From Candidatus Binatota bacterium (lineage in GTDB: Bacteria > Desulfobacterota > Binatia > UBA1149): 64,000 nt of DNA. Below the pieces are notes generated by a model. The model was not told the DNA's origin, made no database searches, and was given only the letters and a program-made list of their open reading frames with translations. Positions within the stretch are counted from its first letter, which is position 1; every line of letters begins with the position of its first letter. This document shows, in pieces, positions 10,447-17,998 of the stretch. The position numbers and the translations under genes were made by a program. The DNA lies in NCBI GenBank assembly GCA_012960245.1, contig DUBO01000023.1:1-64000 (forward strand). The letters run 5' to 3'.

Positions 10447-11367
10447 ATGTCGCACTCAAAAGAACCGGACCAGCACAGCGCGGAGAGCGAGCCGATACCA
10501 GTACCGGTGGCTACCTACCGCCGCCGCATGCCGGTGTCGCTCGACCGCATGCTCGAAAACGCGCTCGACTGGGAACATCTGCCCTGGCTGCACTCGTCGA
10601 GTTTTGCTTCTATTGAACTCGTTGACGAGGACGAGTGGCACTGGCGTGCCGATGCCGAGCTCGCGGGAGCCGACGGCGTACTACAACTCGAGTTGCGGCT
10701 GCACGACGACCGACTTGGCTGGACCACGAGCACACTGGCGGGCAGCGGGACGGGCAGCAGTATCTTCACCCGTGTGCTCGTGCACGGCGAGCACGAATTA
10801 GAAGTCGTCGTGGATTTCTTCGTGCCGGGCATCGAGGCCGAGGCCGACCGCAAAGCCGCGGGCGAGTTTTATCTCGAGGTGTACCAGCAGCTCTACGACG
10901 AAGACGAGTCCATGATGGTCGAGCGGCAGCGCCGCCTCGACAGCGGAGGCAACGGAAACGCGACCGCGAGAAACAGCCGCGCGGCGACGACTGCTGAGCA
11001 AATCAACCCTGGGCCCATCGACCTGGGCCCGGCCGAGCAGCTGGCCGAGCGATTGCCCATGGTGATAGCCACCGACGCGGGACGCTTCCGCGTATTGGAG
11101 CACGACGGCCACCTGCTGGCCCACTCGGTGCTGTGCCCCCACCTGCTCGGCCCGCTAGACCAGTGCAAGCTCATCAGCCCTGGCGATGGTAACGGTGGCA
11201 GTGCCCCCGAGATCGTCTGCCCCTGGCACGGCTATCGTTTCGATGCGTCCAGCGGACGGTCCACCGACGCGCGGCGCTACCGGCTGGCGAGTGCGCCCGC
11301 TGTTGAAACCGGCAACGACGGCCGGGCCAGGCTGGCCTGGCCCGCAAACCAAGGAAAAACGCTGTGA
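10447..11367 (+). CDS. Compact Rieske non-heme iron oxygenase with C-terminal Rieske domain
   Basis: 306 residues. Near the N-terminus N38, D41, H44 and H49 (NALDWEHLPWLH) match the D-x2-H-x4-H mononuclear iron motif of Rieske oxygenases. The segment DEDESMMVERQ (151-161, Asp153) resembles the third-ligand region. The Rieske cluster motif is C230-P-H232 ... C258-P-W-H261 near the C-terminus. In classical alpha subunits the Rieske domain comes first and the catalytic domain is larger, so the order is inverted and the catalytic part is only about 160 residues. Predicted role: hydroxylation, demethylation or a related oxidation of a lipid-like compound with an unseen reductase. The downstream gene overlaps by four bases, so the two are coupled. 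Function of the order is inference. Confidence 0.75.
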   Translation: MSHSKEPDQHSAESEPIPVPVATYRRRMPVSLDRMLENALDWEHLPWLHSSSFASIELVDEDEWHWRADAELAGADGVLQLELRLHDDRLGWTTSTLAGSGTGSSIFTRVLVHGEHELEVVVDFFVPGIEAEADRKAAGEFYLEVYQQLYDEDESMMVERQRRLDSGGNGNATARNSRAATTAEQINPGPIDLGPAEQLAERLPMVIATDAGRFRVLEHDGHLLAHSVLCPHLLGPLDQCKLISPGDGNGGSAPEIVCPWHGYRFDASSGRSTDARRYRLASAPAVETGNDGRARLAWPANQGKTL

Positions 11368-11837
11368 ACACGACCGAGGCCAACAACACAGAACTGGCGG
11401 GCGCCTTCTGGCAGGCGCTTTACTCGCGCGACTGGCAAAAGGTGGCCGGGTTTTTTGACGACGCCAGTCACTACGAAGACGTGCCCGCGCCCGACCGCGG
11501 CGCCGATGGTGCGCGCGCCATCACCGGCCGACTGCGTATCGGCCTGGAATCGATCGATGGCTACCGGCACGAGTGCGAGCGCATCGTGGCCCAGGGCGAC
11601 GTGGTGGTCACCGAACACACCGAGCACTGGAGTTGGTCAAGCGGCGAGCAGGTATCGCTCCCCTTCGTGTCGGTGCAGGTCATCGCTGAAGGCCGGATTC
11701 GACTCTGGCGCGACTACTGGAACCTGCCCACGCTGCTCGACGGTGCGCCGGGCTGGTGGCTGGAGCACATAATGCAGTTCGACGTCGAAGACTTCGAGCG
11801 GCTGGCTGATGGCGTACCGCCGCCGGCCAACAAGTAG
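11364..11837 (+). CDS. Limonene-1,2-epoxide hydrolase-like / SnoaL-fold protein
   Basis: 157 residues, starting in an ATGA-type overlap-region start (GTGA at 11364) with the Rieske gene. The sequence has the cone-shaped NTF2/SnoaL fold signature: an N-terminal helix AFWQALYSRDWQKVAGFFDDASHYEDVP, then IGLESIDGYRHECERIVAQGDVVVTEHTEHW and LWRDYWNLPTLL. Limonene-epoxide-hydrolase relatives use an Asp-Arg-Asp network; here TEH near 90 and RDYW near 120 occupy comparable places but the triad cannot be confirmed by eye. Coupling to an oxygenase would fit opening of an epoxide or isomerisation of an oxidised product (inference). Confidence 0.7.
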   Translation: MNTTEANNTELAGAFWQALYSRDWQKVAGFFDDASHYEDVPAPDRGADGARAITGRLRIGLESIDGYRHECERIVAQGDVVVTEHTEHWSWSSGEQVSLPFVSVQVIAEGRIRLWRDYWNLPTLLDGAPGWWLEHIMQFDVEDFERLADGVPPPANK

Positions 11838-16408: not shown

Positions 16409-17998
16409 TCAGGCGGCCTTGTCGCCCGCAGAGCCGGGGGCGCGGCCGAGCCGGCGGCAGTGGATGCGGTAATCAGACTCAGCGCACTCGCCCGTGCCCA
16501 GTTCAAAGTGCCAACGGTGCCCCGGGCATACTATCTGCCCGTCCTCTATGTCGGCCTCGGAGAGATCGGAGCCGGCGTGCGGACAGAAGCGTTGCACCTC
16601 GTAACGGCACCCCTCGTGTTCGAGTTCAAAGGTGGTCGTGGGCGTGTCCTCGAGCCGGGACTCGCCAGCAGCAATAGCCTGCAAGGCAGCCTGGTTGGCC
16701 ATCTTGAGAAAAGTAAACAGGTGCTGGTTGTAGCGGTCCGGGTCGCGACTGGCCTTGAAGCGCAGCGACAGCAACAGGTCCTCCCAGGAAAACTCGCCGC
16801 GCAGCACCTGGTCAACGTTGCGAGACTCGAACTCAAAATGATACAGGCACTGCTCGCCCTGCTGCGGGTAAACGAGTTCGCCCTTGTTGTCATCGCGAAA
16901 GTCGACGACCCAGCTGCCACCGTTCGGGCCGGTCACGTTGAACAGCACGCGCATGTTTATGCGAGCCAGGAAAAATGGGTTACGGCGCAGCAGCGGCACC
17001 ATGTGGCGACGAAAGCGATCGTACAGCCCCGGCTCCGCGTCGGGTATGGCGGCGAGCACCTCGCGCACGAGAGCCTGCTTTTCGGCCTTGTGGGCCTCGT
17101 AGTAACTGCGGCGGTCGCGCTCGTAGTCAAAATCAGCGTATGCCGGCTCGCGCTCTATCTCGTAACCGTCGGTAGACAGCTGCAGGCGATCGCCCGGCTT
17201 CAAGACCTCCGCAGGGATGCCGACAGACTCAAGGTGCTCGGCGGCCGTGGGGTGGGTGGGAAACATGGAGTCCTCGCCTACAAAGTGATCCGCGAGGTCT
17301 TCGTCAAAGAAACAGGGCGGGCCAGCAAAGGGAATAGCCAGGCGGGGATTGAGTGCCTGGGCATCCTTGGCAAACGATTCAACGGCCGACAAGCGGCGTG
17401 CGGCGCGCAGCGGCCGCTTCTGCTCTTCGTCGTAGCAGGTGTAAGTCAGCGGGTACCAGATGGCCGGCGACGCCTGGCCCATGAGCAGGTCCATGCCGCG
17501 CGCGCGCATCTTGTCGAAATCCAGCGCCGAGTTGGCGTCGTTGAGATTGAGAATGCGCACGTCGCCCGCGGTGATGTAGGCGCAGGAATCGAACCAGTGC
17601 GGCGCACAGTTCTGCTTGGGCACCTCGACCTCGACCACGAAATCCGACGCCAGTTCCCATGACTCGAAGTCGTCAAACTCATACACGTTTTGAAAACCCA
17701 GATCGTGCAGCTTGCGCACGATGAGGCGCTTGTGAAAACGCCCGGTGATCATCGGCGTGTCCTTGGGCAGTTGAGCCAGGAACCAGGGATCGTAGTGGTC
17801 GGGGTGCTCGTGCGAGACGTAGACCGCGTCGGGAGTGAGCAGGTGGCCGAGATCCTTGTGCGGATACTCCGGGTACTGGAACCAGCTCGCGTTGTAGGCT
17901 CCGGCCGGTGACATCCAAGGGTCGCAGAGCAATTTCTTGCCGCCGTACTCGACCATGAGGCCCGCGTGTCCGAGATACTCTATTGTTGCGGTCGCCAC
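16409..17998 (-). CDS. Metallo-beta-lactamase fold protein fused to a C-terminal Rieske domain
   Basis: 529 residues. The N-terminal UlaG-like metallo-beta-lactamase domain has IEYLGHAGLMVEYGGKKLLCDPW and the metal motif H63-E-H65-P-D67-H68. A middle region (about 300-440) includes RRNPFFLARINMRVLFNVTG. The Rieske cluster motif is at the C-terminus: C472-P-H474 and C491-P-G-H494. The nearest described architecture is CMP-N-acetylneuraminate hydroxylase, which has both domains but with the Rieske first. Start GTG 17998 has AGGAGCAGACAG before it. Predicted oxygenase or electron-transfer enzyme of unknown substrate; head of the minus-strand run that continues to the P450. Confidence 0.82.
   Translation of the reverse strand: MATATIEYLGHAGLMVEYGGKKLLCDPWMSPAGAYNASWFQYPEYPHKDLGHLLTPDAVYVSHEHPDHYDPWFLAQLPKDTPMITGRFHKRLIVRKLHDLGFQNVYEFDDFESWELASDFVVEVEVPKQNCAPHWFDSCAYITAGDVRILNLNDANSALDFDKMRARGMDLLMGQASPAIWYPLTYTCYDEEQKRPLRAARRLSAVESFAKDAQALNPRLAIPFAGPPCFFDEDLADHFVGEDSMFPTHPTAAEHLESVGIPAEVLKPGDRLQLSTDGYEIEREPAYADFDYERDRRSYYEAHKAEKQALVREVLAAIPDAEPGLYDRFRRHMVPLLRRNPFFLARINMRVLFNVTGPNGGSWVVDFRDDNKGELVYPQQGEQCLYHFEFESRNVDQVLRGEFSWEDLLLSLRFKASRDPDRYNQHLFTFLKMANQAALQAIAAGESRLEDTPTTTFELEHEGCRYEVQRFCPHAGSDLSEADIEDGQIVCPGHRWHFELGTGECAESDYRIHCRRLGRAPGSAGDKAA

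Follow-up and report, generated by a model that had tools for sequence, protein, structure and literature searches.

The window, i.e. the whole stretch of 64,000 nucleotides that was analysed, belongs to UBA1149, a member of the UBP10/Binatota (group name: PMC8262859). An earlier note on this DNA had placed a compact Rieske oxygenase (RO) at positions 10447-11367, with a mononuclear iron motif and D153 in its first half and the Rieske cluster ligands in its last part. Inspection of the locus showed that the claimed ORF, frame, length and residue numbers were all exact. The ATG at 10447 is the sole possible start of the 306-aa ORF, because the reading frame opens only two codons upstream. The gene, its features and its downstream neighbour are as follows:

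10447..11367, + strand: whole oxygenase-like gene, 306 aa, stop included (stop codon 11365-11367)
10510..10944, + strand: predicted N-terminal START/SRPBCC catalytic domain, residues 22-166 (AlphaFold2 pLDDT about 96; START-fold matches by Foldseek and VIA; VanA_C matches across the family)
10558..10593, + strand: mononuclear iron motif N38-x2-D41-x2-H44-x4-H49, with Asp41 presumed to be bridging (invariant; aligned with the N-x2-D-x2-H-x4-H of ROs)
10897..10905, + strand: D151-E152-D153, with D153 the predicted carboxylate iron ligand (D151 and D153 invariant; D153 on the RO aspartate column, equivalent to D294 of dicamba monooxygenase)
10945..11016, + strand: flexible linker, residues 167-190 (mostly low pLDDT, below 50 at 173-180; length varies among relatives)
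11017..11340, + strand: C-terminal Rieske domain, ferredoxin type, residues 191-298 (Pfam Rieske E 1.1e-7; type assigned by profile, tree and D-x3-G signature)
11134..11142, + strand: C230-P-H232, cluster ligand pair 1 (invariant in homologues)
11218..11229, + strand: C258-P-W-H261, cluster ligand pair 2 (invariant in homologues)
11364..11837, + strand: SnoaL/LEH-like NTF2-fold protein, its GTG start overlapping the oxygenase stop (Pfam SnoaL_2 8e-11, LEH 2.2e-8)

The two metal motifs occurred jointly in 0 of 20,000 shuffles of the 306-aa protein, and each singly in approximately 0.1%, which rules out a chance origin. A frameshift or mis-called ORF was ruled out by the single possible start and by intact homologues. 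Gene copies from the same genus differ mostly at third codon positions, and the gene is therefore under coding constraint.

As the earlier note had proposed, the structure of the monomer was predicted. Two AlphaFold2 runs agreed, the deeper one with a mean pLDDT of 88.5 and a pTM of 0.82, and both gave a START/SRPBCC N-terminal domain (residues 22-165) followed, after the low-confidence linker, by a Rieske C-terminal domain (residues 191-297). The helix-grip fold that is characteristic of RO catalytic domains was recovered in the models as well as by Foldseek and VIA, with VIA-align scores for the N-domain of up to Z 16.4 (rmsd 2.2 over 133 residues). In the model, H44 is located on helix 42-48 (within the helices spanning 32-48) and H49 follows directly behind this helix. 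The third residue, D153, is borne by a long C-terminal helix (132-165). As modelled, these positions correspond to the ligand-carrying elements of ROs.

To assess how widespread this arrangement is, we scanned 84,980 species genomes (GTDB) with the seeds EN[VA]LDW[EK]H and [WY]D[EQ]D[EV]xMM. About 205 loci were matched, and 80 of them were fetched. The order reported for the window protein, in which the iron motif and D153 precede the Rieske ligands, was borne out in 79 of the 80 loci, the remaining one being cut by a contig end. Ten residues (N38, D41, H44, H49, D151, D153, C230, H232, C258 and H261) are invariant in 18 homologues that were found without motif bias. The same ten are invariant in a larger set of 92 sequences that includes members from the seeded scan; for N38, D41, H44, D151 and D153 this is partly circular because the seeds contained them, while H49 and the Rieske ligands were absent from the seeds and their invariance was not selected in this way. 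Within the same class, 33 of 148 genomes carry homologues. As labelled, 59 of the 80 fetched loci belong to Gammaproteobacteria; Alphaproteobacteria, Myxococcota and Binatota are also represented, together with single records labelled Bacteroidota and Actinomycetota. One record, a MAG labelled Klebsiella pneumoniae (L110), carries the reversed-order family, and its label probably reflects misbinning or misnaming.

All 80 fetched loci come from records titled as MAGs, which may be the reason why the family seems uncharacterised. A plasmid search found no relative of the family, and NCBIfam returned only sub-threshold, unrelated matches for the window protein. The open-access literature that we searched, from which most subscription papers are absent, did not describe any START-type oxygenase carrying a C-terminal Rieske domain. 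In the tree of catalytic domains the window protein is placed among proteobacterial sequences and not with most members of its own class, thus horizontal transfer of the gene is likely. Our results indicate that the reversed-order family is real, conserved, widespread in bacteria and apparently undescribed.

Next, we compared the N-terminal half with Rieske oxygenases. The earlier note had proposed to search each half with family models. At E<=1, VanA_C (Pfam PF19112) matched every one of 18 members (best value 3.3e-7), and at E<=1e-3 it matched 11 of 49. A profile of the family searched against 28 classical VanA-type ROs gave two significant matches that are not collinear. The C-terminal Rieske domain matched the N-terminal Rieske domain of the ROs with E 2.8e-11 (full-family profile), and the N-terminal half matched the RO catalytic domain at N-x2-D-x2-H-x4-H with E 2.9e-6 (7.8e-7 for the N-domain alone). 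These two matches therefore demonstrate the reversed domain order directly. The strength of the match between the N-domain and the RO profile is confined to the region of the N-D-H-H helices. A third short piece of the alignment, with E 0.12 not significant alone, places D153 on an RO aspartate that is conserved in 27 of the 28 ROs. In a homologue from the collection (L129), the counterpart of this aspartate in dicamba monooxygenase is residue 294, known as an iron ligand of that enzyme. When the PDB was searched by sequence with the N-domain profile, only SxtDIOX and SxtT matched, both over the iron motif and with a non-significant E of 0.65-1.1.

Profile and motif thus show that the N-terminal half is a homologue of the VanA-type RO catalytic domain. 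The claim that it is an RO-type iron domain is supported for the family by the VanA_C matches, the START fold and the position of D153, while the window protein itself stays below the VanA_C cut-off (16.5 against 23.5 bits). The compactness of the catalytic domain was confirmed: H49 and D153 are 104 residues apart, compared with 129 for H165-D294 in dicamba monooxygenase. ROs are defined by the metal-site motifs C-x-H-Xn-C-x2-H and D-x2-H-x3,4-H-Xn-D (PMC5209329). The window protein contains the first as C230/H232/C258/H261, with a Pfam Rieske match above cut-off, and the second as D41-x2-H44-x4-H49-Xn-D153, for which the aspartate depends on the short alignment piece described above. In the RO classification the Rieske domain is N-terminal and the mononuclear iron site C-terminal (PMC9615114), which is found neither in the window protein nor in the 79 uncut loci. 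The family is not filed as an RO because its order is reversed and its Rieske domain is of another type, even though both motifs are present; by analogy, it probably works like one.

The type of the Rieske domain bears on how the reversed order arose. When the genomes of relatives were searched with the family profile, the top Rieske matches other than orthologues were mostly ORFs of 109-163 aa with E 1e-20 to 1e-17, whereas classical ROs in the same search reached approximately 1e-9 to 1e-4. Profile-profile comparison gave E 1.5e-31 over 101 columns for ferredoxins and 2.2e-17 over 72 columns for RO Rieske domains. Behind the cluster motif, 87 of 92 family members show the D-x3-G spacing, as do 14 of 16 ferredoxin-like proteins, compared with 3 of 37 ROs. 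A tree built from 86 Rieske domains recovers the family as one clade (99/82), and a branch with 97/99 support separates all ROs from it. In all intact two-domain members, this ferredoxin-type module is fused to the START domain rather than being a free-standing small carrier.

Since the Rieske half is of the ferredoxin type, fusion of a ferredoxin to the C-terminus fits better than circular permutation. In a true permutation or domain shuffle, which the earlier note had suggested, both halves would stem from a single RO gene with the order alone changed. Both halves do match classical ROs, and an AU test in which the family's Rieske domain was grouped with ROs gave a p-AU of 0.06, just short of rejection at 5% on a short alignment of 106 columns. 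The much closer profile match to ferredoxins, their D-x3-G spacing and the well-supported split from RO Rieske domains argue against it, so that permutation is not favoured and appears rather unlikely. From the sequence comparisons, the most likely origin is the addition, by fusion, of a Rieske ferredoxin to the C-terminal end of an RO-type iron domain, which we estimate to be about four times as likely as permutation.

Not all relatives retain the Rieske domain. One bacterial family (f7) consists of the catalytic domain only, and the five homologues of this type whose whole sequence was inspected (L017, L018, L160, L165 and L178) keep every iron ligand as well as D41. In the catalytic-domain tree the Rieske-less homologues form one clade (100/98) nested inside the fused ones, and secondary loss of the Rieske domain in this lineage would therefore be the simplest reading of the tree. 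Thus, the Rieske domain is not indispensable there, and an electron donor in trans would be needed. Two other homologues, L019 (216 aa) and L020 (225 aa), have shortened Rieske domains, and the match of L019 runs beyond an in-frame TGA. As these features may result from decay or error, the two proteins were dropped as candidates for ultra-minimal enzymes.

Taken together, we assign a probability of about 0.7 to the reading that the product of the gene is a small non-heme iron oxygenase with two metal centres, in which an RO-type START iron domain was joined by fusion to a C-terminal ferredoxin-type Rieske domain. A non-oxygenase, either a Rieske carrier or a ligand-binding START protein in which N-D-H-H-D serves another role such as binding zinc or a structural metal, would agree with the Polyketide_cyc2 (Pfam) matches of some members and with the existence of a lineage that lacks the Rieske domain. 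It would also agree with the fold searches, in which the top matches of the N-domain were Bet v 1-like and aromatase/cyclase proteins and no RO was present among the best 50 matches listed by Foldseek and VIA; BFVD viral structures gave only general START-type matches. However, as many Bet v 1-like chains dominate the ranking, the lack of ROs in the top 50 says nothing either way. Moreover, the homologues invariably keep the exact RO iron motif, including the presumed bridging Asp, in register with ROs, none of these residues is required by a plain START domain, and the fusion to a redox centre is kept across Gammaproteobacteria, Alphaproteobacteria, Binatota and Myxococcota. A role other than that of an oxygenase is therefore unlikely.

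Next, we analyzed the genomic context. The overlap between the oxygenase gene and the SnoaL/LEH-like gene is retained in L031 and L032, i.e. in all three genomes of the genus, but such a neighbour was not seen in most of the 80 loci. The SnoaL/LEH-like protein is a possible partner in this genus only. The least likely alternative, that the protein acts merely as a subunit completed by this neighbour, a separate ferredoxin or another partner, like beta in alpha3beta3 ROs, can draw on the translational coupling in the three genomes, on the NTF2-like fold of RO beta subunits and on the SnoaL-like genes directly upstream of the Rieske-less L017 and L018, but at most loci the gene instead lies behind ileS, beside an enoyl-CoA hydratase gene or in unrelated contexts.

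Among the 80 loci, ileS is directly upstream in 40 (e.g. L098, L044 and L066) and an enoyl-CoA hydratase gene is a neighbour in 36, often on the other side. This context probably reflects synteny within one marine group of Gammaproteobacteria. We found no linked reductase or conserved operon in the 80 loci, and a linked electron-transfer partner was ruled out by the lack of conserved neighbours. In nine loci (L045, L054, L091 and similar), a classical RO gene of 460-480 aa lies just downstream of the reversed gene. Neighbours in the window include a P450, a luciferase-like monooxygenase and the LEH-like protein, and enoyl-CoA hydratase is found elsewhere; none is conserved throughout, and together they give a hint of lipid, acyl-CoA or terpenoid chemistry.

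For the two-centre oxygenase, we propose the following mechanism. The N-domain would bind Fe(II) via H44, H49 and D153, and a hydrophobic substrate would sit in the helix-grip cavity. The C-terminal module, whose ferredoxin type and fold are described above, would carry a Rieske [2Fe-2S] cluster on the flexible linker. By analogy to ROs, electrons would pass from NAD(P)H via a shared reductase to the Rieske cluster and onward, by way of the invariant D41, to the H44/H49/D153 iron site, where O2 would be activated. The genome encodes a single FNR-type reductase (C45, 410 aa, FNR and plant-type 2Fe-2S) and four classical ROs, therefore a shared reductase is likely, and C45 is the one candidate for it. 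In ROs the two centres are linked from one subunit to the next by a conserved bridging Asp (PMC12445004), and the Rieske-iron separation is approximately 12 Å across subunits as opposed to approximately 45 Å within one subunit. The linker could allow docking of the Rieske domain within the same chain, on the attached catalytic domain, or docking could occur on a neighbour in an oligomer, as in classical ROs. More tentatively, and with somewhat less than even odds, the family may represent a second architecture of Rieske-dependent oxygenases, a minimal enzyme in which a C-terminal ferredoxin domain supplies electrons straight to the iron via the bridging Asp, either in cis or between subunits, and in which the lineage that lost the Rieske domain must be fed in trans.

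The reversed architecture contradicts the textbook rule on RO domain order, in so far as the function predicted by analogy applies. A rule that expects an N-terminal Rieske domain would miss or misname the reversed, ferredoxin-fused version in about 205 species genomes. If our reading is true, electron delivery is possible without an RO-type Rieske domain, and the Rieske-less lineage raises the question whether the iron domain can operate with a ferredoxin in trans. With approximately 250-310 aa, these proteins would offer small scaffolds for engineering and for the study of RO origins.

Finally, we compared the family with known systems. It has in common with VanA-type ROs (DdmC and the vanillate O-demethylase VanA) the N-x2-D-x2-H-x4-H motif with an Asp on the C-terminal helix, the START-type catalytic fold and a Rieske centre in the same chain; it differs in the reversed order, the shorter catalytic part (104 against 129 residues) and the ferredoxin-type Rieske domain. 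The C-terminal 108 residues, including D-x3-G, resemble Rieske-type ferredoxins and NirD-like proteins (PF00355, Rieske_4; 3d89), but in the family this module is fused behind an iron-site START domain, whereas a ferredoxin is a separate carrier. The fold of the N-domain is like that of the aromatase-cyclases ZhuI and TcmN and of Bet v 1-like proteins (VIA Z 14 to 16 over 133-149 residues, rmsd 2.2-4.1), although identity is only about 10%. START/SRPBCC aromatase-cyclases and Bet v 1-like proteins are not known as mononuclear iron enzymes. The parts of an RO are also rearranged in the split chlorophyllide a oxygenase of Micromonas (PMC9615114), which, in contrast to the family, is distributed over two polypeptides and is not a reversed fusion. 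A further system is the UDP-MurNAc hydroxylase NamH (Rv3818), in which, as in the family, the catalytic domain comes first and the Rieske domain last (PMC10050696). The window also encodes a NamH-like protein of 529 aa (16409-17998, - strand, 5 kb away) that combines a UlaG-like metallo-beta-lactamase domain, an Rv3818-like SCP2 domain and a C-terminal Rieske domain, so that a NamH-like architecture is present in Binatota DNA as well; its Rieske domain adjoins the reversed-order family in the tree, on a long branch. The catalytic domain of NamH has the UlaG-type metallo-beta-lactamase fold, whereas that of the family has the START/SRPBCC fold; Pfam found no metallo-beta-lactamase domain in the 306-aa protein, which separates it from NamH and CMAH. 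With this difference in fold, NamH is the nearest precedent for an order with the catalytic domain first and the Rieske domain last.
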